The position numbers and the translations under genes were made by a program. Positions 40,568 through 54,001 of a stretch of 64,000 nucleotides of DNA are shown here, in pieces. Origin of the DNA: Agathobaculum sp. NTUH-O15-33 (GTDB lineage Bacteria; Bacillota; Clostridia; Oscillospirales; Butyricicoccaceae); the NCBI RefSeq assembly GCF_033193315.1, contig NZ_CP136187.1, positions 3,727,501 to 3,791,500 on the forward strand. The letters run 5' to 3'. Positions within the stretch are counted from its first letter, which is position 1. Each line of letters starts with the position of its first letter. Below the pieces are notes generated by a model, which made no database searches, was not told the DNA's origin, and worked only from the letters and a program-made list of their open reading frames with translations.

Positions 40568-40572
40568 TGCAA

Positions 40573-40621
40573 AAAAGCAGCTCTTCACACGGGCGAAACG
40601 CCTGTGTGAAGAGCTGCTTTT
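40573..40621. terminator. Bidirectional terminator between yesN-like gene and yebC
   Basis: A 23-bp stem (40573-40595 with 40599-40621; AAAAGCAGCTCTTCACAC...) with one G-T wobble, loop AAA. A-rich and T-rich edges on both sides. Confidence 0.9.
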
Positions 40622-40661
40622 GTGTGATTTCATAGGAAGCGTTAGGCGGACGGGCGCGGGA

Positions 40662-41405
40662 TCATCCCTCGTACTCATCCTCGTTCTCCCAGTTGTGCCA
40701 GACCGCTTGCACATCGTCGTTATCCTCAAGCCCGTCGAGCATTTTGCGCATTTTGGCCATGTCTTCCTCGCTTTCGAGGGAAACATAGTTCTGCGGCACC
40801 ATTTCGATCTCGGCCTCTACAAACGAATAGCCCAGCGTTTCGAGCGCTTCGCGCACGGCGGAAAAATCCTCGGGCGTGGTGTAGATCTCAAAGGTGTCCT
40901 CGTCGGCCTGAAAATCCTCCGCGCCGGCTTCGAGCGCCTGCATCATGACGGTGTCCTCGTCCTTATCCTCGCGCTCCATGATGATGACGCCCTTTTTATC
41001 AAACTGCCAAGACACGCAGTTCGACGCGCCGAGACCCGCGCCGTACTTGTCAAACAGATGGCGCACATCGGCCACGGTGCGGTTGCGGTTATCGGTCAGC
41101 GTTTCGACGATCACGGCCGTGCCGCCTACGCCGTAGCCCTCGTAGGTGTTGGCTTCGTATTCGATCTGGCCGTTCGCGCCGGAATATTTATCCAGCGTGC
41201 GCTTGATATTGTCGTTGGGCATATTGTTGGCCTTGGCCTTGGCCACACAATCGCGCAGGCGGGCGTTGAAGTCCGGGTTTGCCGAACCGCCCTCCTTGAT
41301 GGCGATCGCCATCTCTCGGCCGATCTTGGTGAAGATCTTTGCCTTTTTCGCGTCGTTCGCGCCCTTGCGCTTGGCAATATTATGCCACTTGGAATGTCCC
41401 GACAT
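40662..41405 (-). CDS. yebC: YebC/PmpR/TACO1 family protein
   Basis: 247 residues from the ATG at 41405 (MSGHSKWHNIAKRKGANDAK, the invariant start of the family), with AGAGGGA upstream. Family landmarks: KIFTKIGREMAIAIKEGG, NARLRDCVAKAKANNMPNDN and YEGYGVGGTAVIVE. Members act as transcription or translation factors; recent work links YebC to ribosome rescue at polyproline stretches. Monocistronic. The longer frame to 41462 adds unrelated residues and is rejected. Confidence 0.93.
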   Translation of the reverse strand: MSGHSKWHNIAKRKGANDAKKAKIFTKIGREMAIAIKEGGSANPDFNARLRDCVAKAKANNMPNDNIKRTLDKYSGANGQIEYEANTYEGYGVGGTAVIVETLTDNRNRTVADVRHLFDKYGAGLGASNCVSWQFDKKGVIIMEREDKDEDTVMMQALEAGAEDFQADEDTFEIYTTPEDFSAVREALETLGYSFVEAEIEMVPQNYVSLESEEDMAKMRKMLDGLEDNDDVQAVWHNWENEDEYEG

Positions 41406-41576
41406 GATGGATTTCCCTCTTTCTATACTAACAATAAAATTTAAAACAGATGAAGCGCACAAAAGCGCACTATAATTTTATCAAATTTTTTGCCGCCGCG
41501 CAAGTATTCCACGCATATTTCACCGGAGTTTGGACGATACTAGGAACGAAAAATCAAGTAAAGAGGTGATTCGTTC

Positions 41577-41699
41577 ATGAGCAAGCAGAACAATAACCAG
41601 AACAACAACCAGCAGAACCAGAACAGCCAGAACAATCAGAACAATCAGCAGAGCCAGAACAAGAACCAGCAGAACAAGAAGAACGACCAGCAGTTCTGA
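41577..41699 (+). CDS. 40-residue Asn/Gln-rich protein
   Basis: ATG at 41577 with an AAAGAGGTGAT site eight bases upstream, ending in TGA at 41697-41699 and followed by a terminator (41721-41757). 16 Asn and 14 Gln make up 30 of 40 residues, the rest mainly Lys and Ser (start MSKQNNNQNNNQQNQN). The composition recalls gamma-type small acid-soluble spore proteins and other N/Q-rich spore proteins of Clostridia, which serve as amino-acid stores; this is inference from composition. The opposite strand gives a Leu/Val-rich pseudo-membrane ORF, which is a shadow. Confidence 0.75.
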   Translation: MSKQNNNQNNNQQNQNSQNNQNNQQSQNKNQQNKKNDQQF

Positions 41700-41720
41700 T
41701 TTTCTCTGCAAAAACAACGG

Positions 41721-41757
41721 AAAAGCGGCCCTGCAGCAACCTGCAGAGCCGCTTTTT
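41721..41757. terminator. Shared terminator of the Asn/Gln protein and the symporter operon
   Basis: AAAAGCGGC (41721-41729) with GCCGCTTTT (41748-41756), extended by CTGCAG on both arms around CAAC. T-runs on both strands serve the two convergent units. Confidence 0.85.
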
Positions 41758-41783
41758 CTATTTTTTAATCAACGCGCGGCGCT

Positions 41784-41900
41784 TTAATTGGATGCGTCGG
41801 CGTCCTCCAGATCGCGGAACTTGATAAACCAATCGCAGAATTTCCATAGCCCAAGCTCGATCAGCAGGCCGATCACGATACCAATCAAAATCCCTGTCAT
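41784..41900 (-). CDS. 38-residue membrane miniprotein, end of symporter operon
   Basis: The ATG at 41900 has a perfect AAGGAGGT site nine bases upstream. The product begins MTGILIGIVIGLLIELGLW, one membrane helix, then KFCDWFIKFRDLEDADASN, an amphipathic polar tail with one Cys. Too small for routine gene callers. It is the fifth and last frame in the run symporter, 46-residue, 180-residue, 28-residue, 38-residue, followed by the terminator at 41721-41757. The role is unknown; single-helix miniproteins often modulate a larger membrane partner. Confidence 0.7.
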   Translation of the reverse strand: MTGILIGIVIGLLIELGLWKFCDWFIKFRDLEDADASN

Positions 41901-41926
41901 CCGTAAGACCTCCTTTTCGTATCCCT

Positions 41927-42013
41927 CTACTTGCTATTGCCGGACGGGAAAAACCCGACCTTTACGATGGCGATCAATGTCGCCACGATACCTACCAGCA
42001 GTGCGATTTGCAT
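41927..42013 (-). CDS. 28-residue membrane miniprotein
   Basis: ATG at 42013 with AAGGAGGCTACT directly upstream. It encodes MQIALLVGIVATLIAIVKV plus a short tail GFFPSGNSK, essentially one transmembrane helix. It is in line with the genes on both sides (20 and 26 base gaps). The strong ribosome site and position inside a tight operon are the evidence; homology cannot be judged at this length. Confidence 0.6.
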   Translation of the reverse strand: MQIALLVGIVATLIAIVKVGFFPSGNSK

Positions 42014-42033
42014 AAGTAGCCTCCTTAATCCCG

Positions 42034-42576
42034 TTAAACCCGTTTGCGAATCAAAATATCATCGCGGCTCACGAGGGCGACGTCCTCCTGACCGCGCCGG
42101 TTTTGGAACTCGATCTCCCAATAGGGGCGGTGGATCAACTGATAATCGATGCTTTCCGCAAACTCGATCTTGCCCAGCTTGAGCGTGCGCGCAAGAAACC
42201 GGCGGGAGGAATACAGCTTTGCACGCGAGGGGAGTTCGCTGCTGGAAAGCAGCGCCTCCAAAACCTCGGCCTGCTCTTCCGGCCGCGTTTCCGTGGCCAC
42301 AAAGTTGACTTGGTGATCCCGCAGATCGAGCGCGTCCGCAATCTTGCGTTTGTACACGCCGATGATCGACCAGTGCAGGATACGCGCGTCCGCCAGAAAG
42401 ACGATGGTGCCCGACACCGGGCTGCCGTCCCGCTCGCGCGCCTGATAATCCGTCCGGCCCAGCCAGAACGGGCGGTATACCGCCTTGACCTGCGTGGGCG
42501 TCTGTTTCAGCCGGTGTGTCCGCACGACCGACCGGACGGCGTCCTCTCTGGTGGTTGTCTCTTTTACAATCAACAT
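42034..42576 (-). CDS. Unrecognised 180-residue soluble protein in symporter operon
   Basis: Started at the ATG 42576 (MLIVKETTTREDAV) with GGGGGAGTG ten bases upstream; a GTG at 42585 abuts that site. No signal peptide or membrane helix. I do not recognise the family. There is an apparent internal duplication: AVYRPFWLGRTDYQAR (about 35-50) and LIHRPYWEIEFQNR (about 149-162), each followed by a Gly-containing turn and a strand ending in an Asp-rich motif (FLADARIL, LVSRDDILI). This suggests two similar beta-rich halves separated by a basic helical middle. The gene is fully embedded in the symporter operon, so an accessory or regulatory role in transport is likely but unproven. Confidence 0.7.
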   Translation of the reverse strand: MLIVKETTTREDAVRSVVRTHRLKQTPTQVKAVYRPFWLGRTDYQARERDGSPVSGTIVFLADARILHWSIIGVYKRKIADALDLRDHQVNFVATETRPEEQAEVLEALLSSSELPSRAKLYSSRRFLARTLKLGKIEFAESIDYQLIHRPYWEIEFQNRRGQEDVALVSRDDILIRKRV

Positions 42577-42613
42577 ATGAAGCACTCCCCCGCCGTAAAC
42601 TGTTCGCGCGTCC

Positions 42614-42754
42614 TCAACGATCCGAGGATCCGTCCTCCGCGCGCATGGTTTTGATCGCCTCCGGAATGCCCTTGATCAAAACCATCAGGTACAAAAACCC
42701 AAAGGTACCGAAGGATATACCGAGCGTGATCGCGTGAAACATACTCCAGTTCAT
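42614..42754 (-). CDS. 46-residue membrane miniprotein next to the symporter
   Basis: ATG at 42754 with AAGGAAGG upstream, 24 bases after the symporter stop. One transmembrane helix (MFHAITLGISFGTFGFLYLM) and a charged cytosolic tail (EAIKTMRAEDGSSDR). Short accessory subunits encoded beside sodium:solute symporters are known in other bacteria, but this sequence does not match one I can name. Below the usual gene-calling length. Confidence 0.7.
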   Translation of the reverse strand: MNWSMFHAITLGISFGTFGFLYLMVLIKGIPEAIKTMRAEDGSSDR

Positions 42755-42778
42755 AATAACCTTCCTTTCCGAAGCGGT

Positions 42779-44251
42779 TTAATCCATACCGTTTGCCAGA
42801 CCGCGCCGTTCGCGGTAAACGCCAACAATCTTTTTCGGCGGATCCGTCTTCTGCGTCAGGAGCGAAAATACCACCATACCGACAACGGACGAGCCCATCG
42901 AGCTAAAGCCGATGACCCAAGCGTCCAGACCGAGGATATAGTTGGTGATCACCGCGGAGAGCAGGCCGAACACCAGCGACGCGCACGCGCCCCACTGATT
43001 CGCCTTTTTCCAGTACATACCGAAGAAGCACGCGACGGCTACGCCGGAAACGAACATCAGCTCCGCCAGCTTGACCACCCAGTAGATCATGCCGCCCTCG
43101 TAATAATAGCCGACATACAGCGCGCAAAGCGCGGTGAGCAAAATACCGAGGCGGATGAGGAGCGAGGTCTGCTTATCCGAAAGCTTTTTATTCTGTGGCA
43201 GCAGCGGCCCGATGATATCCTGCGGGATCATGGAGGCGCAGGTCATATAATAGGTATCCGCGGTGGACATAAAGGCCGACAGCATACCGGCGACGATCAG
43301 CCCTAGCAAGCCGGTCGGCACGATGGCCAGCATGGTTTCCGCATAGGCCGTGATGCCGCTTGTCAGGTTCGGCACAATGATCAGGCCGGCGGCGCCGATG
43401 ATGACCGGGAAGCACGCGCGGGCCAAAAACGACGAGTAGCCAAGGGTAGAACCCTTGTAGCCCTCGCGCACCGAGCGGCAGGAGCACACGCGCGTGAGCG
43501 AGGTCGGATAGACCGCCATTGCGATAAAGAAATAAATAATCTGATACCAGATCGTGGGCATGCCGTAGCACGCCACCGGGTTGACGCCGGGTTCGCCCAG
43601 CGCGGCATACACGCCGTTGTACAGCGCGTCCCAGCCGCCCACGTGTACGATCGCGATAACGGAGCAAAGCGGAATGACAAGGCCCAGAATCAAAAACTGC
43701 ACCAGATCAGTCAGCACAACCGACCACATGCCGCCCGTAACGGTGTAGGCCAAGGCCAAGATCAGCATCAGCGTCATAACCAGCTTGGGATCGGTGCCGA
43801 GGAACACGCCGAACATGTTGCCGAGGCCCTGCAAAAACGTGCCCAGCATGACGAGGAACGCCGCGACCATGGCAAAGCCGGCGATCGCGCGCGCTACTTT
43901 TCCGTAGCGGAATTCCATGATCTCCGGGATGGTCATGATCTTGAGCCGGCGCACCCATACGGCAAAATAGCCGCCCATGCCGGCGAGTACCGAGCCGATC
44001 ACGATCACCACGCCGAGGAACATGGCGGACAGGCCGTTGTTATAGCCCGCCTCCGCCTGATAGACCATGGTGATGGCGCCCCATTCACCGGCCACGACGC
44101 TTGCCAGCATAACGTACATGCCGACGTTTCTGCCGGCTACCAGAAGCTCTTCTTTTTTACCATGCGCTTTTTTCGATGCCATCAGACCGATGGCGGTGAT
44201 GCCGAGGATAAACAGTGCAACGATAACCCAATCCAATGCCGCGAGTCTCAT
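42779..44251 (-). CDS. Sodium:solute symporter (SSS family)
   Basis: 490 residues from the ATG at 44251 with AAAGGAGG upstream. About 13 membrane helices. Family features include GEWGAITMVYQAEAGYNNGL near helix 2, the sodium-site helix ALAYTVTGGMWSVVLTDLVQ, and VAGMLSAFMSTADTYYMTCA in the core helix 8 region with its Ser/Thr sodium ligands. It imports an organic solute with Na+. First gene of a five-gene operon with miniproteins. Its promoter (44395-44423) carries a TTAAACGTTTAA operator shared with the divergent catabolic operon, so it probably imports that operon's substrate. Confidence 0.9.
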   Translation of the reverse strand: MRLAALDWVIVALFILGITAIGLMASKKAHGKKEELLVAGRNVGMYVMLASVVAGEWGAITMVYQAEAGYNNGLSAMFLGVVIVIGSVLAGMGGYFAVWVRRLKIMTIPEIMEFRYGKVARAIAGFAMVAAFLVMLGTFLQGLGNMFGVFLGTDPKLVMTLMLILALAYTVTGGMWSVVLTDLVQFLILGLVIPLCSVIAIVHVGGWDALYNGVYAALGEPGVNPVACYGMPTIWYQIIYFFIAMAVYPTSLTRVCSCRSVREGYKGSTLGYSSFLARACFPVIIGAAGLIIVPNLTSGITAYAETMLAIVPTGLLGLIVAGMLSAFMSTADTYYMTCASMIPQDIIGPLLPQNKKLSDKQTSLLIRLGILLTALCALYVGYYYEGGMIYWVVKLAELMFVSGVAVACFFGMYWKKANQWGACASLVFGLLSAVITNYILGLDAWVIGFSSMGSSVVGMVVFSLLTQKTDPPKKIVGVYRERRGLANGMD

Positions 44252-44378
44252 GTAAAATCCTCCTTTTTTCTTTTCCCAATGTCTGTGCAAAAGGTAAGGA
44301 GCAGAGCACTTCTGGGACGCCCCGCCCCAGCGCAGTGTAAGCAGACCGCCTCGTCGGGCGATCCGGATATCCGATTAG

Positions 44379-44390
44379 TTAAACGTTTAA
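44379..44390. promoter_or_regulatory. LacI-type operator at the symporter promoter
   Basis: Perfect palindrome TTAAACGTTTAA with the CG centre typical of LacI-family sites, just downstream of the symporter -10. Nearly the same site recurs at 44538-44548. The obvious cognate regulator is the LacI protein encoded at 49494-50549. Confidence 0.7.
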
Positions 44391-44394
44391 TTAG

Positions 44395-44423
44395 ACTATA
44401 ACACCATGTATTTACCTTGTCCA
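44395..44423 (-). promoter_or_regulatory. Sigma-A promoter of the symporter operon
   Basis: Minus strand TGGACA (44423-44418), 17 bases, TATAGT (44400-44395), with the operator starting 5 bases downstream. Confidence 0.6.
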
Positions 44424-44495
44424 TATCAAAATAAACATTCTTTAAAAATCGTGAATAGCAACGAAAATCTTTCATTTTTTTATGAATGTTGTTGA

Positions 44496-44548
44496 TTGAA
44501 AATTGTTTTCCCCCATGCAATACTAAGAAAAGAATAGTTAAACGTTTA
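44496..44548 (+). promoter_or_regulatory. Promoter and operator of the catabolic operon
   Basis: TTGAAA (44496-44501), 17 bases, AATACT (44519-44524) is the best -35/-10 pair, followed by the operator GTTAAACGTTTA at 44537-44548. The operator core TAAACGTTTA is identical to that of the symporter side, 160 bases away. The rest of the 381-base divergent gap shows no other structure. Confidence 0.55.
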
Positions 44549-44632
44549 TATTTCTCCGTTTGAGAACGGGAGAGGGTGGGACGATCAGCTTAAACCGCGC
44601 GCGGCAAAACAAATGGAAAAGGAGCTTCGATC

Positions 44633-45505
44633 ATGGAGAAAATCGGTTTTATCGGGCTTGGCAATATGGGCGGGGCGATCTGCAAGGCGCTGATCGCAGG
44701 CGGACTGGACGTAACGGTATTCGATTTAAACCCCAAGGCGCTGGCGGACGAGGCCTATCAAAACAAGGCGGCGATCGCGGACAGCACCGGCGCGGTGTGG
44801 AAAGCGTGCGACATTGTATTTCTCTCCCTGCCCTCCTCCAAGCAGGTCGTTCCCATCATAGAGGAATTTATCGCGGCGGGCGTTCAGGGCAAGACCATCG
44901 TCGATACCTCGACCAGCTACCCGCAGACGACGCGCGCGCTTTACGCGCGCATCAAGGCGGCAGGCGGCCAGCTGGTCGATCTGGCGATTTCGGGCGCGCC
45001 CGCGGACGCGCAGAACGGCAAGCTGATGGCGCTTTTCGGCGGCGACGCGGCAATGCATGAAAAGCTCGCGCCGATCGTGCGCTGCTTTGCCGACCGGTAC
45101 CCTAATTTAGGCGAGAGCGGCGCGGGCCACGTGACCAAGATCCTGTTCAACTTCGTGGCCATGAGTTACGTCAATATCTACGCCATGGCTTTTCCGCTCG
45201 CGCAAAAGCTGGGGCTCGATATGGATCAGGTTTATGAATTGCTGCTCAGCACCGGCATGGGCTGCGGCACCATGCAGTTCTACGTGCCCAAAATGATCCA
45301 CCAGACGTACGAGATGGCGTTCGCCCTTGAACTGGCGCACAAGGATCTGTCCTATTGCCGCAGCCTGTTCGAGGAATTTCAGGTGCCTGCCTTTTTGCTG
45401 GACGGCGAATTGGCCATGCTGCGCACCGCGATCCGCGACGGCAAGGGCAAAATGGATTACAGCGCCTGCATCGGCACGATGTTTGAATTTTTTGAGGGCA
45501 AGTAA
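44633..45505 (+). CDS. Beta-hydroxyacid dehydrogenase (3-hydroxyisobutyrate dehydrogenase family)
   Basis: 290 residues. N-terminal Rossmann motif GFIGLGNMGGAIC, substrate-binding DLAISGAPADAQNGKL, catalytic Lys in GAGHVTKILFNF, and an all-helical C-terminal half. The family oxidises or reduces short beta-hydroxyacids and semialdehydes (3-hydroxyisobutyrate, tartronate semialdehyde, sulfolactaldehyde). AAAAGGAG lies upstream of the ATG. First gene of a seven-gene operon. Substrate unknown. Confidence 0.88.
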   Translation: MEKIGFIGLGNMGGAICKALIAGGLDVTVFDLNPKALADEAYQNKAAIADSTGAVWKACDIVFLSLPSSKQVVPIIEEFIAAGVQGKTIVDTSTSYPQTTRALYARIKAAGGQLVDLAISGAPADAQNGKLMALFGGDAAMHEKLAPIVRCFADRYPNLGESGAGHVTKILFNFVAMSYVNIYAMAFPLAQKLGLDMDQVYELLLSTGMGCGTMQFYVPKMIHQTYEMAFALELAHKDLSYCRSLFEEFQVPAFLLDGELAMLRTAIRDGKGKMDYSACIGTMFEFFEGK

Positions 45506-45543
45506 AGACCTTCCCATAACGGAAGGCGGAAAAGAGTGCTATT

Positions 45544-46320
45544 ATGCTGAAATGCTTTGATTTGACCGGCCAGACCGCGATTGTGACCGGCGCAAGCAAG
45601 GGGCTGGGCGAGGGCTTTGCCCACGCGCTCGCGCAGAGCGGGGCCGACCTTTTTCTGGCGGCGCGCCATCCGGAGGGCTTACAGCGGGTGGCCGAGGAGA
45701 TTCGCGCGGCGTACGGGGTGCGGTGCCACTGGTGCGCGGCGGATATCGCCAAGCCCGGCGACCCGGACCGCATCGCCGCCGCCTGTACGGACGTTTACGG
45801 CAAGATCGACATTCTGGTCAACAACGCGGCGGCCATGCGCAATAACAAGCCCCCGCAGCAGACCACGCCGGAGGAATTCGAGGCGGTCATGTACCCCAAC
45901 GTGATCGGCACCTACGCGCTTTGCCGCGCGGTGGGCGAAGTGATGCGGCGGCAGAAAAAGGGCAAGATCGTCAACATTTCTTCCATGTCGGCGCTGATCG
46001 TCAACCGCGGCGTATACGGCGGTTCCTACGAGGTCTCCAAGGCCGCGGTCGCCATGCTGACCAAAACGCTCGCGGTCGAATGGGCGGGCGACGGCATCAA
46101 TGTCAACGCGATCTGCCCCGGCTATTACGGCACCGAGCCCAACCGCCGGTTTTTCGCGGCCGACCCCACGTTTGAGGGCAAGGTGCTCGACATGATCCCC
46201 ATGCACCGTCTGGGCGAACCGAACGAGCTTTGGGGCGCGCTGATCTTGCTGTGTTCCCCGGCGGCGGACTATATGCAAGGCAGCGTGATCACCGTGGACG
46301 GCGGCTACACACTTTGGTGA
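45544..46320 (+). CDS. SDR-family oxidoreductase
   Basis: 258 residues, classical short-chain dehydrogenase. Cofactor motif TGASKGLGEG, NNAAAM in place of NNAG, catalytic Ser in NISSMSAL, and Tyr/Lys in YEVSKAA. Length and C-terminal end (GSVITVDGGYTLW) are typical of sugar-acid or polyol dehydrogenases such as gluconate 5-dehydrogenase. 38 bases after the hydroxyacid dehydrogenase and 18 before the Fe-dependent dehydrogenase. It probably oxidises a secondary alcohol of the imported compound. Confidence 0.88.
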   Translation: MLKCFDLTGQTAIVTGASKGLGEGFAHALAQSGADLFLAARHPEGLQRVAEEIRAAYGVRCHWCAADIAKPGDPDRIAAACTDVYGKIDILVNNAAAMRNNKPPQQTTPEEFEAVMYPNVIGTYALCRAVGEVMRRQKKGKIVNISSMSALIVNRGVYGGSYEVSKAAVAMLTKTLAVEWAGDGINVNAICPGYYGTEPNRRFFAADPTFEGKVLDMIPMHRLGEPNELWGALILLCSPAADYMQGSVITVDGGYTLW

Positions 46321-46338
46321 GGAGGAAAGAACCCGATT

Positions 46339-47505
46339 ATGAAATGCTTTGATACTTATTTTCCGACCAAGCTGATCTTCGGCGCGGGAACCATCGCCCG
46401 TCTTGGCGAGACCGCGAAGGCGTACGGCAAAAAGGCGATGATCGTCACCACGGGCGACGATATGAAAAACTTTGGCATTCTCGACAAGGCGACCGCGTCG
46501 CTCGAAAGCGCGGGCGTGGCCTACACGGTGTTCAGCGGCGTTGAGCCCAACCCCAAGGACCACAATGTGGACGAGGGCGTTTTGCTCTTTGCGCGCGAGG
46601 GCTGCGACATGACGATCGGCCTTGGCGGCGGCAGCGCGATGGACGGCGCCAAAGCGATCTCGATGATCAGCCGCAACGGCGGCGTGGTCATGGACTACAT
46701 GCCCGGCCAAGCGCGCGCCGCGGAACAGCTGACAGAGACCAACCCCTGCATCTGCGTGACGACCACGGCGGGCACCGGTTCGGAAGCGACGTATTTTTCC
46801 GTGATCACCAACACCAAGACGCATGAAAAGCCCGGTCTCGGCTGCCCCTGCATGATGCCCGTGGCTTCCATCATCGACCCCGAGCTGATGCTTTCACTGC
46901 CGCGCGGCGTGACCGCGCAAACCGGCGTGGATGTGTTTTTCCACGCCATGGAGGCTTATCTTTCCACCGTGGCGACGCCGTATACCGAAATGGTCTCCTT
47001 GGAAGCCATGCGGCTGACGGCGCAGTACCTGCCGCGCGTGCTCGACCACCCGGACGATCTGGAAGCGCGCGGTAAAATGGCTTGGGCCAATACGCTGGGC
47101 GGCATGGCGATCGTTTTGGCCGCCACCTGCGGGCTGCACGCCATGGGCCACTCCATCAGCGGCGTGACCGATATCCCCCATGGGCGCGCGCTCGCCACCG
47201 CGGCGGTCGCTTTTATGGATTACACCTGGGACGCGGACCCGGAACGCTACGCCACAGTCGCCCGTATTCTGGGCGCGGACCCCGCGCTGCCGGACGAGCA
47301 GGCCGCCAGTGAATGCGGCAAGCTGATGGAACGGTTCCTGAAAAACAGCGGCATGCAGACGCGCCTGACCGAGCTGAACGTGCGCGAGGACCAGATCGAG
47401 GAAATCGCGGACGTTACCTGCAGCGCCATGGCCTTTTGCATGGGCGTGACGCTGAAAAAACTAGAGCGCGCCGATATCGTGGAAATGCTGCACATGTCTT
47501 TATGA
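46339..47505 (+). CDS. Iron-containing alcohol dehydrogenase
   Basis: 388 residues, group III ADH. NAD-binding GGGSAMDGAKAI, TTAGTGSEAT, and metal ligands in GVDVFFHAMEAY (Asp/His) and GLHAMGHSISGVTDIPHG (two His). Interconverts an alcohol and aldehyde or ketone with NAD(H). A GAGGAGG site precedes the ATG. Within the operon it gives, with the aldehyde dehydrogenase at the end, an alcohol-to-acid pair. Confidence 0.9.
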   Translation: MKCFDTYFPTKLIFGAGTIARLGETAKAYGKKAMIVTTGDDMKNFGILDKATASLESAGVAYTVFSGVEPNPKDHNVDEGVLLFAREGCDMTIGLGGGSAMDGAKAISMISRNGGVVMDYMPGQARAAEQLTETNPCICVTTTAGTGSEATYFSVITNTKTHEKPGLGCPCMMPVASIIDPELMLSLPRGVTAQTGVDVFFHAMEAYLSTVATPYTEMVSLEAMRLTAQYLPRVLDHPDDLEARGKMAWANTLGGMAIVLAATCGLHAMGHSISGVTDIPHGRALATAAVAFMDYTWDADPERYATVARILGADPALPDEQAASECGKLMERFLKNSGMQTRLTELNVREDQIEEIADVTCSAMAFCMGVTLKKLERADIVEMLHMSL

Positions 47506-47529
47506 AAACATTAAAGGAGTGAATCAAAT

Positions 47530-48297
47530 ATGCACGAGGAATTTTGGGTTGATCTGCTGCGCGTTCACTGCTATCCCTCAAGAGACGAATTGGGCGCGTC
47601 CTGCGCAAAGTTTGCCGCCGAGCAGATCCGGGCTATCCTTGCGGAAAAAGAAGAGGCGAACCTGATCTTTGCTTCCTCCCCCTCGCAAATGGACGTATTG
47701 AACGCCCTGCGCCGCGAGGACGTGGACTGGAGCCGGGTCAACGCCTTCCATATGGATGAATACATCGGCATCGCGCCCGACCACAAGGCTTCGTTTGTCG
47801 GGTATCTGCGCGACAACTTTTTTCAGTACCTTCCCCTGAAAAACACGTTTTATATGAACGGTCTGGCGGAGGATATCGAAGCGGAATGCGAGCGGTACAG
47901 CGCGCTGCTGCGCGAGCACCCGATCGACCTGACCTTTGCCGGCATCGGCGAAAACGGCCACATGGCGTTTAACGACCCCTATCTGGCGGACTTTTTCGAC
48001 CCCAAGCTGGTCAAGCCCAACCTATCGCTAGACGAGGAATGCCGCATGCAGCAGGTGCACGATAAATGGTTCTCCTGCGAGGCCGAAGTGCCGCAGGGCG
48101 CGATCACGCTGACCATGCCCACGCTGCTGCGCGCGCCGGTCCTGATCGTCATTTCGCCCAGCGAAACCAAAAGCGCCATTGTGCAGAAATGTCTGGAAGG
48201 GCCGGTTGGCCTAGCCGTGCCCGCCACCGCCATGCGCCTGCACAAAAACGCGCAGCTGTTTTTGGATACGGCCGCCGCCGCCCTGCTGAACCGGTAA
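47530..48297 (+). CDS. NagB-like glucosamine-6-phosphate deaminase family protein
   Basis: 255 residues. Retains the NagB core: FHMDEYIGI, the sugar-phosphate loop GIGENGHMAFNDP, and the lid-region His residues. The canonical catalytic Glu of NEP is Asp here (NDP). The C-terminal part (FDPKLVKPNLSLDEECRMQQ, VPQGAITLTMPTLLRAP) is that of a divergent NagB subfamily rather than housekeeping NagB. It may deaminate or isomerise a related amino-sugar phosphate. AAAGGAG lies upstream. It pairs with the NagA-like gene 18 bases downstream. Confidence 0.85.
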   Translation: MHEEFWVDLLRVHCYPSRDELGASCAKFAAEQIRAILAEKEEANLIFASSPSQMDVLNALRREDVDWSRVNAFHMDEYIGIAPDHKASFVGYLRDNFFQYLPLKNTFYMNGLAEDIEAECERYSALLREHPIDLTFAGIGENGHMAFNDPYLADFFDPKLVKPNLSLDEECRMQQVHDKWFSCEAEVPQGAITLTMPTLLRAPVLIVISPSETKSAIVQKCLEGPVGLAVPATAMRLHKNAQLFLDTAAAALLNR

Positions 48298-48315
48298 AGG
48301 AGGCGCTACCCTACC

Positions 48316-49497
48316 ATGCGCACTGTATTGGAAAACGCCGTTATCGTCGCCCCCGCGCGGCTGTTCCGGGGCACGGCGGCGGTAGAGGACGGCAAAATCG
48401 CCTTTGTGACCGAAGGGCCGGATTATGACCGCCGGCCGGACGATCAGGTGATAAACGCGAAGGGCCGTTATCTTTCGCCCGGCTTTATCGATCTGCACAC
48501 CCACGGCGCGGGCGGGCACGATTTTATGGACGGCTCGGTCGACGCGATCGCGGCGGCGTGCCGCACGCATATGCGGCACGGCACCACGGCGCTGCTGCCC
48601 ACCACGCTGTCCTCGCAGGATGAGGAGCTGTTTGAAAACCTATCGAACATCGACCGCGCCGCCGCGCTGCGCGAAGGCATGCCCGAAATTTTGGGCGCGC
48701 ATCTGGAGGGCCCGTATTTTTCGCCGGAGCAGAACGCGGCGCAGGATAAACGCTTTATCAAGAATCCCTTGCCGGAAGAATACCAGCGGATCTTCGCGCA
48801 CTGCCCCTCGATCCGTATCTGGTCGGTCGCGCCCGAGCTGCCGGGCGCGCTGCAAATGGGCAACTGGATGCGCGCGCACGGTATCATCGGCTCGATCGGC
48901 CACTCCAACGCGGTCTACGAAGAGGTGCTGGCGGCGAGCGAAAACGGCTACGGCATGATCACGCACTTTTGGAACGGCATGTCCCGCTTGACGCGCAAAG
49001 AGGCGAAAATGTACCTTGGCGTGGCCGAAAGCGGGCTGCTCATCGACGATTTGACCGCCGAGGTGATTGCAGATGGTTGCCATTTGCCCCTATCTTTGCT
49101 AAAATTGATTTATAAGACCAAAGGGCCGGATCGTATCTGTCTGGTGACCGATTCCATGCGCGCCGCCGGAACGGATGTGGCGGAAAGCACGCTCGGCAGC
49201 CTGAAAAACGGACAGCGCGTGATCATCGAAGGCGGCGTGGCGTACATGCCGGGCAAGGCCAGCTTCGGCGGCAGCATTGCGACGGCGGACCGGCTGGTCC
49301 GTACCATGTACAGGCGCGTCGGCGTCCCGCTGCCCGAAGCCGTGCGCATGATGACGCTCACCCCCGCGAAGGCCTTGGGCGTGGAACGCCGTCTGGGCAG
49401 CATCGCGGCCGGTAAGGATGCGGACCTTTTACTCTTTGACGATGATATCCATATCGAGCTGATTATGATAAAAGGGAAGGTTTGGGCCGCCTCATGA
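48316..49497 (+). CDS. nagA: N-acetylglucosamine-6-phosphate deacetylase family protein
   Basis: 393 residues, amidohydrolase superfamily. Metal and substrate motifs: GFIDLHTHGAGGHDFMDG (HxH retained, as in one-metal/two-metal NagA), GAHLEGPYFSPEQNAAQD, IGHSNA, THFWNGMS (HLFNAM in canonical NagA) and catalytic Asp in CLVTDSMRAAG. It removes an acetyl group from an N-acetyl amino-sugar phosphate. The altered FWNGMS and the unusual NagB partner suggest a non-standard substrate. It overlaps the start of the LacI gene by 4 bases. Confidence 0.88.
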   Translation: MRTVLENAVIVAPARLFRGTAAVEDGKIAFVTEGPDYDRRPDDQVINAKGRYLSPGFIDLHTHGAGGHDFMDGSVDAIAAACRTHMRHGTTALLPTTLSSQDEELFENLSNIDRAAALREGMPEILGAHLEGPYFSPEQNAAQDKRFIKNPLPEEYQRIFAHCPSIRIWSVAPELPGALQMGNWMRAHGIIGSIGHSNAVYEEVLAASENGYGMITHFWNGMSRLTRKEAKMYLGVAESGLLIDDLTAEVIADGCHLPLSLLKLIYKTKGPDRICLVTDSMRAAGTDVAESTLGSLKNGQRVIIEGGVAYMPGKASFGGSIATADRLVRTMYRRVGVPLPEAVRMMTLTPAKALGVERRLGSIAAGKDADLLLFDDDIHIELIMIKGKVWAAS

Positions 49498-50549
49498 GAA
49501 TTACGATCAAAGATGTAGCCAGCGACGCCGGGGTTTCCACCGCCACAGTGTCTCACGTGATCAACAACACCAAGAATGTGAGCCTGTCCGTCGCGCAGCG
49601 CGTGCGCGAATCCATCGCCCGCCTGCACTATTACCCGAACCAGATGGGCGGGGGCCTGCGCAGCAAGAAATCCTACACCGTCGGGCTGATCATCCCCACC
49701 ATTGCCAACGAAACGTTCGGCCGCCTCGCGGACGCCATTCAGTGCATCCTGTTCGAGCAGGGCTTCAATTTGATCGTATGCAACACCTACTATGATGTGG
49801 AAATGGAAAAGCGCGCGCTGGACACCATGCTGATGAAGCAGGTGGACGCTGTTTTCGCCATCCCGGCGGAGGACCGCTGCCCCAAGCTTCAGGAGATCGC
49901 CCAGCACCACTGCCCCATCATTTTGCTGGACCGTGTTTTACAGGACTTTGAGACCGACGTTGTCGCGGCGGACAACTACCGCGGCGAACGCATGGCGATC
50001 AACTACCTCATCCGCATGGGACACCGGCACATCGGTTATATCGACCGCATGCTGCAACAGTCGCATTCCGCCGCGCAGAAGCAGGGCTATATCGACGCGC
50101 TCGGGGAGCACGGCATTCCCTATAACGAGGCCTATGTCGTCAACGCGACCGGCCATTATTACGAAGCCGGTACCGGCGCGGCGCAAACGCTGATGCACCG
50201 CTGCCCGGATATCACCGCGATCGCGTGCTACTACGACCTAATGGCCTTTGGTGTGATTCGCGGCCTGCTCGACCTTGGGTTTCGCGTGCCGGAGGATGTT
50301 TCGGTCATCGGATACGACAACATGCTGGTGACCGAGGCCTCCTACCCGCGCCTGACCACGGTGGAGACCCCCTTGCAGCAGATCGCGGAGACCGCGTGCG
50401 GCCTGCTGATGCGCCGCCTGCAAGAAAATGAGGACAACAAGGACCATCCGCTCGCGGAACCGGCCAAGGAAAAGATCCTGCTGGAACCGAGGCTGGTCAC
50501 GCGGGAATCCGTCGCCAAAAGAAGCGCTCCTGTAAAGCAGACCCCATAA
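49494..50549 (+). CDS. LacI-family regulator of the symporter/catabolic regulon
   Basis: 351 residues from the ATG at 49494, inside the nagA stop (ATGA). HTH ITIKDVASDAGVSTATVSHV, hinge YYPNQMGGGLRSKK, then the sensor domain (VGLIIPTIANETFGRLADAI, ILLDRVLQ, MGHRHIGYIDR, DVSVIGYDNM). Being inside the operon whose promoter bears TTAAACGTTTAA, and facing a symporter operon with the same site, it is the likely repressor of both. The effector would be a pathway sugar or intermediate. Confidence 0.9.
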   Translation: MRITIKDVASDAGVSTATVSHVINNTKNVSLSVAQRVRESIARLHYYPNQMGGGLRSKKSYTVGLIIPTIANETFGRLADAIQCILFEQGFNLIVCNTYYDVEMEKRALDTMLMKQVDAVFAIPAEDRCPKLQEIAQHHCPIILLDRVLQDFETDVVAADNYRGERMAINYLIRMGHRHIGYIDRMLQQSHSAAQKQGYIDALGEHGIPYNEAYVVNATGHYYEAGTGAAQTLMHRCPDITAIACYYDLMAFGVIRGLLDLGFRVPEDVSVIGYDNMLVTEASYPRLTTVETPLQQIAETACGLLMRRLQENEDNKDHPLAEPAKEKILLEPRLVTRESVAKRSAPVKQTP

Positions 50550-50565
50550 AAAGGAGTGAAACCAT

Positions 50566-52005
50566 ATGAAAATGCTCGTTGGCGGCCGTCCCACGGACGC
50601 GCGGGACGGGGCCACCCTATCCGTCTACGACCCCGCCGCCGCGCGGCTGATCGACACCGTGCCCGCCGCGACCAAGCAGGATATCGAAGAGGCGCTGGAA
50701 AACGCCGAGCAGGGCGCGAAGGAATGGCGCGCCTGCCCGCTGCATCGGCGCATTGCCGTCATTCGCACGTTTCTGCAAAAATTTGAGGACGCCGCGGAGG
50801 AACTGACCGCGCTTTTGCAGCGCGAAACCGGTAAAACGACCGCCGCGGCGCGCGGCTGCATTCTGGGCAGCCGCGCGCTTGGCGAACACTACGCGGAGCT
50901 TGCGCGCACACTGGGCGGCGAGACCTTCGCGCCGGACAACTGGGCCGGGACGGAAAACGCGCTGGTGATGACGGTGCGCGAACCGCTTGGCGTTGTTGTG
51001 TGCATCCTGCCGTTCAACTTCCCCATTGATTCGTTCATGCACAAGGTGGTGCCCGCGCTGCTCATGGGCAACGCGGTGATCATCAAGCCCGCTTCCGAAA
51101 CGCCGCTGACCGATATCCGCGTGACCGAGCTGCTGCTGGAAAGCGGCGTGCCGGGCAACGCGGCGCAGATCGTCACCGGCAGCGGCGCGAAGATCGGCGC
51201 GTGGCTGACCGCCGACGCGCGCGTGGCGCTCATCAACCTGACCGGCAGCACCCGCGTGGGCGTCGAAATCGCGCAAAACGCGGCCGCCCATCTGCACCGG
51301 CTGCATTTGGAGCTGGGCGGCAACGATCCGCTCATCATCCTGCCGGACGCCGACCTGAATACCGCCGTGGAGGAGGCGTTCGCCTCCCGCATCGGCAACG
51401 CCGGACAGGTGTGCTGCGCGGGCAAACGCTTCCTCATTCCAAGGGACCGCAAGGAAGCCTTTCTGGACGGCCTGATCCGTCGCTTGCGGGCCGTCCGCGT
51501 CGGCGACCCGGCCGATCCCCGGACCGATTGCGGGCCGCTCATCTCGGAGCGCGCCGCGAAGGAGCTGGAAGAAAACCTGCGGCACTGCGTTTCGCAGGGC
51601 GCGACCCTGCGCTTTGGCGGGCGCCGCCTGCAAGGCGCGTACTTTGAACCCACCGTATTGGAGATAACGCCCGAAGTGGACGCGGCGCGGGATCTGGAGC
51701 TGTTCGGCCCGGTCTGGTCGGTGCTGCCGTATGACACGGTGGACGACGCCATCGCGCTTGCCAACCACACGATGTACGGCCTGTCCTCCGGCGTTTTAGG
51801 CAAGGATCTGTCGCAGATGATGTATGTGGCCAGAAATATACAGGCCGGCGCCTGTGTGATCGGCGGTTCGGGCGCGTACCGGACCAGCGATCAGCCCTTT
51901 GGCGGCTATAAAATGAGCGGCCTTGGGCGCGAGGGCGGCCGGTATACGCTGGAAGAACTGAGCCAGCTGAAAACGATCGTACTCAAAACCCCCTACTCTT
52001 TTTAA
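50566..52005 (+). CDS. NAD(P)-dependent aldehyde dehydrogenase
   Basis: 479 residues. Motifs: ILPFNFPIDSFMHKVVPAL, catalytic Glu in HLELGGNDPLI, catalytic Cys in GNAGQVCCAGKRF, LFGPVWSV, and QPFGGYKMSGLGREGG. Similar in length to glyceraldehyde-3-phosphate/succinate-semialdehyde/lactaldehyde dehydrogenases. AAAGGAGTG precedes the ATG. Final gene of the operon, ended by the terminator at 52030-52065. It would convert the aldehyde made by the Fe-dependent or other dehydrogenase to an acid. Confidence 0.88.
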   Translation: MKMLVGGRPTDARDGATLSVYDPAAARLIDTVPAATKQDIEEALENAEQGAKEWRACPLHRRIAVIRTFLQKFEDAAEELTALLQRETGKTTAAARGCILGSRALGEHYAELARTLGGETFAPDNWAGTENALVMTVREPLGVVVCILPFNFPIDSFMHKVVPALLMGNAVIIKPASETPLTDIRVTELLLESGVPGNAAQIVTGSGAKIGAWLTADARVALINLTGSTRVGVEIAQNAAAHLHRLHLELGGNDPLIILPDADLNTAVEEAFASRIGNAGQVCCAGKRFLIPRDRKEAFLDGLIRRLRAVRVGDPADPRTDCGPLISERAAKELEENLRHCVSQGATLRFGGRRLQGAYFEPTVLEITPEVDAARDLELFGPVWSVLPYDTVDDAIALANHTMYGLSSGVLGKDLSQMMYVARNIQAGACVIGGSGAYRTSDQPFGGYKMSGLGREGGRYTLEELSQLKTIVLKTPYSF

Positions 52006-52029
52006 CCGCAGCCCGGCTGCAAACAAAGC

Positions 52030-52065
52030 CCCGGCGCGGGAGTCTGAACGGACTCCCGCGCCGGG
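52030..52065 (+). terminator. Terminator of the catabolic operon
   Basis: CCCGGCGCGGGAGTC (52030-52044) pairs perfectly with GACTCCCGCGCCGGG (52051-52065), loop TGAACG, with a T-rich tail to about 52078. Confidence 0.85.
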
Positions 52066-52080
52066 ACCTTTGCTTTTTCA

Positions 52081-52109
52081 TTGCCCTTTTTCCCACCAGA
52101 TGGTATGAT
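52081..52109 (+). promoter_or_regulatory. Sigma-A promoter of recQ
   Basis: TTGCCC (52081-52086), 17 bases, TATGAT (52104-52109), 35 bases upstream of the ATG. Confidence 0.55.
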
Positions 52110-52144
52110 AGGAAAGGGAAAACGCATACAAAGAGGAGAAGTAT

Positions 52145-54001
52145 ATGGAAAGCGCGGCGGCAAAGCAGGTTTTAAAGCAATATTTCGGCTATGATTCGTT
52201 TCGGCCCGGGCAGGATCGGCTGATCGAGGCCATTCTGGAGGGGCGCGACGTGCTCGGCGTGATGCCCACGGGCGCGGGCAAATCGCTTTGCTATCAGGTG
52301 CCCGCGCTGCTGCTGCCCGGGGTGACGCTCGTCATCTCGCCGCTGATCTCGCTGATGCAGGATCAAGTCGGCGCGTTGCGGCAGTCCGGCGTGCCAGCCG
52401 CTTATTTAAACAGCGCGCTTTCCGCCGCCGAAATGGGCGATACGCTGTACGAAGCGCGGCAGGGCGGCTACAAGCTGCTTTATGTCGCGCCCGAGCGCCT
52501 GACTGCGCCGGATTTTCTTGCCTTTGCCCGCGAAGCCGAGATCTCCATGGTCACGGTGGACGAAGCACACTGTATTTCCCAGTGGGGGCAGGATTTTCGC
52601 CCCAGCTACTTAAAAATACTCGATTTTCTTTCGCTTTTGCCGCGCCGTCCGCTCGTTTCCGCCTTCACCGCGACCGCGACAGCCACGGTGCGCGAGGATG
52701 TCGTGCGCGCGCTCGCCCTGCGCGAGCCGTTCACGCTGACGACCGGCTTCGACCGGCCCAATCTCTATTTCGCGGTCGAGCACCCATCCAGCAAGCCGCA
52801 GGCGCTGCTGCGCCTGCTCGCCGGGCGGCGGGACAAAAGCGGCGTGATCTACTGCGCGACGCGAAAAACCGTGGAGGATGTGTGCGACATGCTCTGCGCC
52901 AAGGGCCTTGCCGCGACCCGCTACCACGCGGGCCTGCCCGCGGAGGAACGGCAGCAAAATCAGGATGATTTTTTGTATGATCTGAAGCCGGTCATGGTGG
53001 CGACCAACGCTTTCGGCATGGGCATTGACAAATCGAACGTTTCCTTCGTGATTCACTACAATATGCCGAAAAACATGGAAAGCTACTATCAGGAAGCCGG
53101 ACGCGCGGGGCGCGACGGCGAACCGGCGGACTGTATCCTTTTATACAGCGGGCAGGATGTGCACACCGCCCGCTTCCTGATCGAGCGCAGCCGCGAGGCC
53201 GCGCCCGAGGAGGGACTGGACGAGCAAACGCGAGCCGCCCTGCTGGATCGGGAATATGAACGCCTGCGCCAAATGACCTTTTACGCCACCACGACCGATT
53301 GCCTGCGCCGGTTCATCCTAGGCTATTTCGGCGAAGCCGCGCCGGTATCGTGCGGGCACTGCGGCAACTGCGACACCACCTTTGAAGAGGTGGACGCCAC
53401 CTTGGACGCGCAGAAAATTTTATCCTGCGTGTACCGGCTGGCCGAACGCGGGCTGCATTTCGGCAAGATCGTCGTCAGCGCCGTGCTGTGTGGCAGCCAA
53501 AGCGAAAAAATAGAAAAGTTCGGCCTGCAATCGCTTTCCACCTATGGCATTATGGAAGAGCAGACGGCAAAGCGCGTGCGGCAGCTGATCGATACCTTGA
53601 TCGACCGGGGCTGCCTGCAAAGCGACGCCGAACGCCACAACACGCTGTACCTGACGCCTGCGGGCAACGCGCTCATGCGCGGGCGCGACACCTTTGTAAT
53701 CAAGCTGCCGCGCGAAAAGCCGCCCGCGCTCAAGGCCGCGGAAAAGGCCGGGGCCGCCGTGGGCACGGCCGATTCCACGCTGTTCGACCTGCTGCGCGAC
53801 TGCCGCGCCCGTCTGGCGCGGCAAGCGCATGTGCCGCCCTATATTATCTTTTCCAACGCCGCCTTAAGCGACATGGCCGCCCGCAAGCCCATTACCGCCG
53901 AGGAATTCCTTGAAGTGCGCGGCGTGGGCGAAGCCAAGGCCGATCGCTACGGCGTACCCTTTCTGGAAACCATCAAAGCCTATTTGCGCGAAAAAGATTG
54001 A
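52145..54001 (+). CDS. recQ: ATP-dependent DNA helicase RecQ
   Basis: 618 residues. Superfamily 2 helicase: Walker A MPTGAGKSLCYQVPAL, DEAH box in TVDEAHCISQWGQDFRP, motif III TATATAT, motif VI YYQEAGRAGRDG. The RecQ-C-terminal zinc site is present (TDCLRR, then SCGHCGNCD), followed by a winged helix and an HRDC domain at about 535-615. Unwinds recombination and repair intermediates. AGAGGAG lies upstream of the ATG. Monocistronic and convergent with the TipA-like regulator. Confidence 0.95.
   Translation: MESAAAKQVLKQYFGYDSFRPGQDRLIEAILEGRDVLGVMPTGAGKSLCYQVPALLLPGVTLVISPLISLMQDQVGALRQSGVPAAYLNSALSAAEMGDTLYEARQGGYKLLYVAPERLTAPDFLAFAREAEISMVTVDEAHCISQWGQDFRPSYLKILDFLSLLPRRPLVSAFTATATATVREDVVRALALREPFTLTTGFDRPNLYFAVEHPSSKPQALLRLLAGRRDKSGVIYCATRKTVEDVCDMLCAKGLAATRYHAGLPAEERQQNQDDFLYDLKPVMVATNAFGMGIDKSNVSFVIHYNMPKNMESYYQEAGRAGRDGEPADCILLYSGQDVHTARFLIERSREAAPEEGLDEQTRAALLDREYERLRQMTFYATTTDCLRRFILGYFGEAAPVSCGHCGNCDTTFEEVDATLDAQKILSCVYRLAERGLHFGKIVVSAVLCGSQSEKIEKFGLQSLSTYGIMEEQTAKRVRQLIDTLIDRGCLQSDAERHNTLYLTPAGNALMRGRDTFVIKLPREKPPALKAAEKAGAAVGTADSTLFDLLRDCRARLARQAHVPPYIIFSNAALSDMAARKPITAEEFLEVRGVGEAKADRYGVPFLETIKAYLREKD

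Follow-up and report, generated by a model that had tools for sequence, protein, structure and literature searches.

Gene content and organization of the locus

The window analysed here, a stretch of 64,000 nucleotides from Agathobaculum sp. NTUH-O15-33 (contig NZ_CP136187.1, positions 3,727,501 to 3,791,500), contains a five-gene symporter operon and a seven-gene operon that diverge across a gap of 381 bp. A first-pass annotation had described this arrangement, and all of its genes were recovered at the coordinates listed below. The seven-gene operon runs in the order HIBADH-type dehydrogenase, SDR, Fe-ADH, NagB-like, NagA, LacI and ALDH; in the left operon the symporter (490 aa) is followed by ORFs of 46, 180, 28 and 38 aa.

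41784..41900, minus strand: 38-aa ORF, last in the symporter operon (ORF call; RBS-like AAAAGGAGG)
41927..42013, minus strand: 28-aa ORF (read from the sequence; RBS-like AAGGAGG)
42034..42576, minus strand: 180-aa protein (U183 if counted from an earlier start), family not recognised (0 Pfam, 0 NCBIfam matches)
42614..42754, minus strand: 46-aa ORF directly after the symporter (ORF call)
42779..44251, minus strand: SSS-family sodium:solute symporter, 490 aa (PF00474, 97.3 bits)
44379..44390, no strand: candidate operator TTAAACGTTTAA at the symporter promoter, a perfect 12-bp palindrome
44395..44423, minus strand: promoter-like TGGACA-17-TATAGT of the symporter operon (consensus match only)
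44496..44524, plus strand: promoter-like TTGAAA-17-AATACT of the seven-gene operon (consensus match only)
44537..44548, no strand: candidate operator GTTAAACGTTTA at the seven-gene operon promoter
44633..45505, plus strand: HIBADH-type beta-hydroxyacid dehydrogenase (NAD_binding_2 and NAD_binding_11)
45544..46320, plus strand: SDR dehydrogenase (NF005559, 218.1 bits, cut-off 215)
46339..47505, plus strand: iron-containing alcohol dehydrogenase, Fe-ADH (PF00465/PF25137)
47530..48297, plus strand: NagB-like protein of the GENGHxAFNDP subfamily, without the canonical phosphate loop (TIGR00502, 123.9, cut-off 236.9)
48316..49497, plus strand: NagA-family deacetylase (TIGR00221, 261.3, above the equivalog cut-off of 225.65)
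49482..50549, plus strand: LacI-family regulator (PF00356, PF13377)
50566..52005, plus strand: aldehyde dehydrogenase, ALDH (PF00171, 468.6 bits)

For the symporter, ATG 44251 is the most probable start and was chosen instead of the mechanically called TTG 44290; from this ATG to the ATG of the HIBADH gene at 44633 there are exactly 381 bp. RBS-like stretches precede the listed starts in both operons, and the intergenic gaps of the plus-strand operon range from -16 to 38 bp. The family scans (Pfam, NCBIfam) covered nine proteins of the block, the other three ORFs being shorter than 50 residues; each of these three (46, 28 and 38 aa) presumably contains one hydrophobic segment, as judged by reading the sequence. 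Homologs of the 180-aa protein were found in none of the 390 other genomes of the class, its own genome being the sole match among 391. An Rfam search at gathering scores of window positions 40000-53000 gave no match.

The block looks like an island inserted between yebC and recQ, and it has the look of a self-contained gene set, built for the import and breakdown of an amino-sugar-like nutrient.

A common candidate operator at both promoters

The near-identical palindromes reported at the two promoters both read TAGTTAAACGTTTA and each lies beside a promoter-like site; the LacI gene is located inside the seven-gene operon, again in agreement with the first-pass annotation. The exact 13-mer AGTTAAACGTTTA occurs twice in the genome of 4,005,854 bp, both times in this gap and 159 bp apart, where a dinucleotide model derived from the window predicts 0.03 occurrences per genome and 3e-6 in the gap. 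With one mismatch the genome contains seven matches (the two exact ones, the first site read on the other strand and four elsewhere), and the reversed pattern used as control likewise yields seven. Thus, weight is placed on the exact AGTTAAACGTTTA only. Within the window, TTAAACGTTTAA was found four times against 1.3 expected when up to two mismatches were allowed, and promoter-like sites on the matching strand beside the operators were found twice against 0.7 by chance. The promoter region of the conspecific genome L047, the sole other genome read with this region, shows one difference in 392 bp. No CG-centred palindrome resembling the operator was found in L049, and the sequence of L048 begins inside NagB. 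On the best reading of these sites, both operons would be repressed by this LacI through the paired operators.

It might also be that chance alone has placed the two operons next to each other, as unrelated genes under separate control. The operator sequence common to both promoters, which has no other exact copy in the genome, speaks against this, and so do three of the twelve congeners read, in which yebC and recQ are adjacent without the block.

Recurrence of the gene set

The search for the gene set in other genomes, which the first-pass annotation had proposed, gave a divided answer: parts of the set recur, but the complete set was not found in any of the other-species genomes that could be read. 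Co-location in metagenomes was inferred from longest contigs of identical size. The HIBADH clade comprises 72 proteins at 49-99% identity (next 42-44%), the symporter clade 15 proteins at 51-100% (next-best about 28-36%). Of the 39 sizes of HIBADH-clade contigs of at least 6 kb, at least 14 were found again in the list of the 120 nearest NagA proteins, and the symporter clade shares four contig sizes with HIBADH and at least three with NagA, two of them with both. As controls, we took homologs from outside the clades: 48 of HIBADH shared no contig size with the NagA proteins listed, and 105 of the symporter matched each list twice, in every case on contigs <3 kb. Since parts of the set recur elsewhere, simple juxtaposition is disfavoured. 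The HIBADH clade was found in none of the 390 other class genomes and no HIBADH match was found in the L048 genome, which would fit a chance neighbourhood, as does the missing complete set; against the common operator and the repeated co-location, judged by identical contig sizes, we consider it highly improbable.

The NagA and NagB-like proteins

The amino-sugar deacetylase/deaminase pair of the first-pass annotation stands on its deacetylase side, with NagA passing its model cut-off, but the NagB-like protein stays below the NagB equivalog cut-off (TIGR00502), for which the canonical NagB of the same genome scores 287.7. By models the NagB-like subfamily belongs to the glucosamine-6-phosphate deaminase family, and it is widespread: of 599 stretches matched by pattern, 596 contained relatives (best 80 kept).

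The phosphate loop A[ST]G[GS][ST]P is absent from the NagB-like protein of the window, which has FASSPSQ instead. In a set of 94 homologs (91 distinct), 93 could be tested for the loop, L048 being cut before it, and in none of the 93 was [ST]G[GSN][ST]P found before GENGH. The position of the canonical Arg in AN.RFF is occupied by G in 83 homologs, by K in 9, and by E and A in one each. Canonical NagBs from the loci of 15 relatives (n=12) contain ATG[GS][ST]P in 10 cases and AN.RFF in 11. Asp72, His143 and Lys208 are retained in 94 of 94 homologs; for these residues and Arg172 we assume the roles that they have in E. coli NagB.

The NagA of the window retains the E. coli NagA residues Glu131, His195, His216, His251 and Asp273. 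At the phosphate-contact Arg position, MAFFT gives Met (112 of the 120 closest homologs), and an ungapped reading gives Arg-Lys/Arg (107 of 120). A loss of the phosphate arginine, strong by MAFFT, was withdrawn because the result hinges on the placement of a four-residue insertion. The positions used for the anion-contact comparison are Arg219/Arg220 of MsNagA (PMC6016474), and read without gaps NagA may keep the anion-binding side chains there, as Arg and Lys/Arg. Searching 391 class genomes for NagA gave, outside its own genome, 18 matches spread over 17 genomes, all with a wider-type loop by eye, and 10 plasmid records contain NagA homologs, with identities of at most 48.4% among the 8 listed.

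As the first-pass annotation had stated, the block contains no kinase or PTS (nine proteins scanned) and does not fit the canonical GlcNAc pathway. A separate canonical PTS-nagB-nagA operon is located elsewhere in the genome, and seven matches to the ROK family, which includes sugar kinases, lie outside the block. These matches would allow an unusual HexNAc to be degraded by the ordinary route through phosphorylation: it would enter through the symporter, be phosphorylated by an unlinked kinase and be processed by NagA and NagB as the 6-phosphate, with the oxidoreductases handling side products or redox balance. The equivalog score of NagA, the possibly retained Arg/Lys at its phosphate-contact positions and the invariant Lys208 of NagB are in line with such a route. 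The phosphate loop missing in all 93 testable NagB-like members and the canonical operon already present in the genome argue against it, and we regard it as unlikely, though as an alternative to be taken seriously.

Neighbours of related gene pairs

The neighbourhood of related NagB-like genes was scanned for 120 of 229 same-strand ORFs, from 61 loci. No sugar kinase was found among the families matched by at least two of the 120 neighbours, and this lack of a recurrent kinase family beside the pair also disfavours the phosphorylative route. Among the neighbours, GH20 hexosaminidases (4/120) and NagX-type proteins (2/120) are signs of neutral HexNAc at other loci.

In L059, L060, L100 and L107, genes for D-mannonate oxidoreductase and mannonate dehydratase are found close to a NagB-like/NagA pair; L059 has UxuA, D-mannonate oxidoreductase, NagB-like and NagA in a single tight row. 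No UxaC was found in the genomes of L059 and L060 (MAGs, which may be incomplete), which would fit a supply of the keto-uronate by the NagB-like enzyme. UxaC is present in the genomes of L107 and L100, where UxuA is near the pair, and it lies near the pair itself in L056, L115 and L124, where the uronate genes may serve co-released plain uronate. We take genes in L060, L107, L115 and L124 to be those of KDG kinase and KDPG aldolase, and L049 presumably includes an ABC transporter. UxuA had no match in this genome (G000) or in the conspecific G530 and was found in G012; UxaC had no match in G530. Thus, the mannonate route is unavailable in this species. The N-acetylated sugar acid that the first-pass annotation had suggested as substrate would be supported by the uronate genes beside related pairs, whereas UxaC in some of these genomes, the neutral-HexNAc neighbours and the lack of UxuA here weaken it.

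Oxidoreductases of the block

The solved structure nearest to the HIBADH-type enzyme is tartronate semialdehyde reductase (1vpd); an aligned motif reads S-G-A in the HIBADH, S-G-G in tartronate semialdehyde reductase and G-R-T in 3-sulfolactaldehyde reductase. Sulfo-sugar chemistry was set aside, the NCBIfam matches to sulfolactaldehyde and sulfoacetaldehyde enzymes being weak and far under their cut-offs. The SDR is nearest to galactitol dehydrogenase (2wdz) and gluconate 5-dehydrogenase (1vl8) and is by model not a D-mannonate oxidoreductase (NF006132, 157.5 against a cut-off of 281; four SDRs of related loci score 320-457). Fe-ADH matched 16 NCBIfam models, each time with a score under the cut-off, and the best NCBIfam model for ALDH is lactaldehyde dehydrogenase, at 377.4 against a cut-off of 650.

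Tartronate semialdehyde reductase as nearest structure and lactaldehyde dehydrogenase as nearest, though sub-threshold, model would agree with an acetamido compound that is larger than a plain HexNAc or otherwise unlike it (of the muramic-acid type, an amino-cyclitol or an N-acetylated hydroxy acid). NagA and the NagB-like protein would have drifted towards this compound, and its C2-C3 side chain would be processed by the lactaldehyde/tartronate-semialdehyde-like enzymes. The gene set was not reproduced in six loci whose HIBADH homologs have 38-42% identity, but one of them, L147, has N-acylglucosamine 2-epimerase-family and lactate-racemase-family genes beside this homolog, and L148 a look-alike of the epimerase-family gene, which would suit such a compound. 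The family scans of the block revealed no etherase or aldolase, and the NagA and NagB residues needed for a sugar substrate are retained, making this explanation quite improbable.

A proposed pathway

The reading we prefer, with a probability of about 0.45, is that an N-acetylated amino sugar, possibly N-acetylhexosaminuronate, is taken up and degraded under LacI repression and without a kinase. The symporter, perhaps together with the small membrane ORFs, would import the substrate with sodium. Deacetylation by NagA would be followed by release of the amino group as ammonia through the NagB-like enzyme, giving a ketose-type product. The substrate of both would be unphosphorylated, most simply with a C6 carboxylate (N-acetylhexosaminuronate) replacing the phosphate. 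SDR, Fe-ADH, the HIBADH-type enzyme and ALDH would either act on the product, interconverting its keto, alcohol, aldehyde and acid groups, or prepare the substrate. The LacI encoded in the operon would repress both promoters until released by a pathway intermediate. We infer the unphosphorylated state and acid nature of the substrate, the order of steps, all roles of the oxidoreductases, and LacI binding and effector. The anion-binding side chains that NagA may retain and the ROK-family proteins encoded elsewhere in the genome weigh against this reading.

A wider reading, which we consider speculative and rather doubtful, would be a phosphorylation-free route for N-acetylhexosaminuronate (or an allied oxidised amino sugar) in Clostridia and Bacteroidota, in which a NagA-family deacetylase and a loop-less NagB-like deaminase would lead to a keto-uronate, which would be processed via mannonate in some species and by a new set of four oxidoreductases under a dedicated LacI in Butyricicoccus faecihominis, the species of the genome studied here, and in metagenome relatives.

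If the NagB-like proteins act on unphosphorylated or acidic amino sugars, copied NagB names would mislead models of glycan use, that is, of the use of host and bacterial glycans by gut and other bacteria. The window offers a compact, single-regulator system for testing the NagB-like substrate, and a named strain of the species exists.

Comparison with known systems

Local repressors of the LacI family that act through paired operators in a divergent promoter region are a known kind of regulation. The locus shares with it the regulator inside one of the operons and, beside each promoter, an A+T-rich palindrome centred on CG.

With the canonical GlcNAc pathway (NagE/PTS or NagK, NagA, NagB) the block has in common the pair of a NagA equivalog and a NagB homolog. 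It differs in the missing PTS or kinase, the NagB-like protein without phosphate loop, the SSS uptake and the four added oxidoreductases. The hexuronate pathway UxaC-UxuB-UxuA resembles it through the related loci in which the pair lies near genes of this pathway, but the block itself is without UxaC and UxuA.

This gene set, or hexosaminuronate catabolism by NagA/NagB relatives, was not found in the literature searched, most subscription journals lying outside it. The ong pathway of Pseudoalteromonas offers a precedent: an SSS transporter brings in the acid GlcNAc1A, which loses its acetyl and amino groups first and is phosphorylated only afterwards. The pathway includes OngB, which is related to D-aminoacylase, the PLP deaminase OngC, KdgK and a MurR/RpiR regulator (PMC9537276). 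Measured against this description, OngB, OngC, KdgK and MurR/RpiR were not found in the block, where the deacetylase is a NagA equivalog and no PLP-enzyme family is present. The likeness lies in the SSS importer (PF00474, in family only and not in substrate) and, as proposed here, in the amino-sugar-type substrate and the order of deacetylation followed by deamination in the unphosphorylated state.

Two facing operons and their operators

The block is real and is an amino-sugar catabolic operon of altered make-up, not a new kind of system. The first-pass annotation had proposed two facing operons, and ORF and family-model matches bear them out at the positions given there. The gap of 381 bp between them is exact when counted from the symporter ATG at 44251, most likely the true start, to the ATG of the HIBADH-type dehydrogenase gene. 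The left operon consists of the symporter and ORFs of 46, 180, 28 and 38 aa, each gene preceded by an RBS-like stretch; the three smallest (46, 28 and 38 aa) look hydrophobic on reading. The 180-aa protein (window 42034-42576), located between two tiny ORFs, matched no family in Pfam or NCBIfam and had no homolog among 390 other genomes of the class. Intergenic gaps in the right operon range from -16 to 38 bp.

Both palindromes in the divergent gap contain TAGTTAAACGTTTA. The exact 13-mer AGTTAAACGTTTA is present in two copies in the 4,005,854-bp genome, both inside the gap and 159 bp apart; a dinucleotide model derived from the window predicts 0.03 genome-wide. Allowing one mismatch gives 7 matches in the genome and 7 for the reversed control, thus no excess, and only the exact 13-mer counts as evidence. 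Each operator is adjoined by a promoter-like site of the right strand. From this operator pair it follows that both operons would be under LacI control via the predicted operators.

A NagB-like subfamily lacking the phosphate loop

The NagB-like protein scores 123.9 against a NagB cut-off of 236.9. GENxHxAFNDP is present in 94 of the 94 homologs examined (91 distinct), as are Asp72, His143 and Lys208, residues with roles in E. coli NagB. The loop [ST]G[GSN][ST]P was found in 0 of the 93 homologs in which the region is present, and the position of the Arg in the canonical AN.RFF is occupied by Gly (83), Lys (9), Glu (1) or Ala (1) among the 94. For comparison, relatives with lower-scoring matches were used (15 loci). 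Motifs picked out 14 proteins there: 12 canonical NagBs, with the loop in 10/12 and the arginine motif in 11/12, and two of the GENGH type. The phosphate-loop-less subfamily is widespread and is a more general finding than the block itself.

NagA scores above the NagA equivalog cut-off and retains Glu131, His195, His216, His251 and Asp273 (E. coli numbering). Its 120 nearest homologs are a separate type, NGMSR...MYLGVAESG, with Asn in 116 and Met in 112; in a wider set (n=65) Ser is found in 62 and Arg in 64. The apparent loss of the phosphate-contact arginine is alignment-dependent: an ungapped reading places Arg and Lys/Arg at the M. smegmatis Arg219/Arg220 positions, with Asn before them, in 107 of the 120 homologs. 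In the M. smegmatis study, Arg219 contacts the phosphate and Arg220 is directed away from the ligand, and changing the M. marinum equivalent of Arg220 abolished activity (PMC6016474). NagA may therefore have kept the ability to bind an anion in the vicinity of C6.

Wider-type NagA homologs in 18 Clostridia stretches (L172-L189) mostly have no adjoining NagB-like gene and often lie near housekeeping genes; the exception is L181, with NagA and NagB-like side by side.

Gene neighbours and recurrence

A NagA homolog was found in 69 of 96 stretches around NagB homologs, at most 300 bp away in 58; this set takes in the canonical pair of L045 and the conspecific locus L047. For the neighbours, up to four same-strand ORFs within 3.5 kb were taken (75 of 78 loci, 229 ORFs, near-duplicate loci excluded), the ORFs being mechanical and 170-699 residues long, and 120 random ORFs from 61 loci were scanned. 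They included GFO/IDH/MocA (20), MFS (11), GH20 (4), AP_endonuc_2 (4), NagX-type HGSNAT_cat (2), UxaC (1) and UxuA (1). Among the families with at least two matches there was no sugar-kinase family; 25 of the 84 families were listed, and single matches could lie among the rest. By reading, an apparent KDG kinase and KDPG aldolase were identified near the pair in four loci.

In L059 (7980-11880), from a goat-rectum Clostridia MAG, a single tight same-strand row is made up of UxuA, D-mannonate oxidoreductase, NagB-like and NagA. UxaC was looked for in four genomes whose UxuA is close to the pair: those of L107 and L100 have it, and it was not found in those of L059 and L060. In a further three loci (L056, L115, L124) UxaC itself is a neighbour of the pair. 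UxuA without UxaC fits a NagB-like enzyme delivering a keto-uronate, and the UxaC-containing pattern fits uronate genes handling plain uronate co-released with HexNAc, both patterns being blurred by MAG gaps.

HIBADH at clade-level identity was found in 0 of 390 other genomes of the class and 0 of 397 others of the phylum; the clade is uncommon in species genomes. A large protein collection lists 72 members (49-99% identity), the next proteins following at 42-44% when one short 63% fragment is set aside. Co-location was judged by identical lengths of longest contigs between protein lists, an indirect sign with gene order outside its reach. Of the 39 HIBADH clade lengths of at least 6 kb, 14 reappear in the list of 120 NagA proteins; a control of 48 HIBADH homologs from outside the clade shares 0 lengths with this list. 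The symporter clade (15 proteins) has 4 lengths in common with HIBADH and 3 with NagA; 105 control symporters outside it gave 2 matches to each, every one on contigs below 3 kb. The longest contigs of two different HIBADH-clade proteins, P0029 and P0038, are equally long (13739), so the two may be paralogs encoded on the same contig.

L048 (uncultured Clostridia) carries NagB-like, NagA, LacI and ALDH ordered as in the window, its contig ending inside NagB; its genome gave no HIBADH match. In L049, NagB-like, NagA and LacI stand behind a gene reading as a sugar-type ABC transporter. Lactate-racemase-family (Lar_N) genes occur in L051 and L147, and N-acylglucosamine 2-epimerase-like genes also recur in the L051/L147/L148 group, repeatedly adjoining NagB-like/NagA or distant HIBADH genes and hinting at hydroxyacid sugar chemistry.

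Lar_N and 2-epimerase-like genes by locus
L051 8703-9977 and 11978-13261
L147 2449-5921
L148 217-1530

Origin of the block

The block appears inserted. Butyricicoccus faecihominis DFI.6.109, given as the same species, carries it at 98-100% identity, and a close NagB-like homolog was found in 0 of 23 other genomes of the genus. The yebC flank was read in 12 congeners, and in 3 of them yebC faces recQ head to head at a distance of about 420-660 bp. In the window 10.7 kb separate the two genes and the block lies in this interval, so that it is best seen as an insertion. Among the remaining nine, recQ is 2.3 kb off in one and nearby on the same strand in another, and seven have no recQ inside the stretch read beside yebC. 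The G+C content of the block (0.598) is like that of its flanks (0.602 and 0.605). An Asn/Gln-rich 40-aa ORF (MSKQNNNQNNN..., window 41577-41699, + strand) adjoins yebC and has counterparts between yebC and recQ in three genomes (G012, G002, G009), with a similar GAGGTGA upstream.

Substrate, proposed route and precedent

A canonical PTS-nagB-nagA operon of the GlcNAc type is also present in the genome, at 223-228 kb (its PTS protein reaches 517.3, against 553.2 for the GlcNAc-specific model); therefore the NagA/NagB-like pair of the block, the second in the genome, should have a different substrate. A kinase unlinked to the block might phosphorylate this substrate, as seven ROK-family matches are located elsewhere in the genome. 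Since UxuA was not found in this genome, and neither UxuA nor UxaC in the conspecific one, the mannonate route is closed in this species and the block's four oxidoreductases must do something else.

Most likely, import would be coupled to sodium and followed by deacetylation, then by deamination to a ketose or keto-uronate, with redox steps last. The SDR family suits a secondary alcohol or ketone. The Fe-ADH and ALDH families suit an alcohol-aldehyde-acid series and the HIBADH-type family a beta-hydroxyacid, and these last two argue for carboxylated intermediates.

A literature search of partial coverage found no paper on this gene set. A precedent is the ong (GlcNAc1A) pathway of Pseudoalteromonas, in which an amino-sugar acid is taken up by an SSS transporter and directly deacetylated and deaminated, although by enzymes unrelated to those of the block (PMC9537276).
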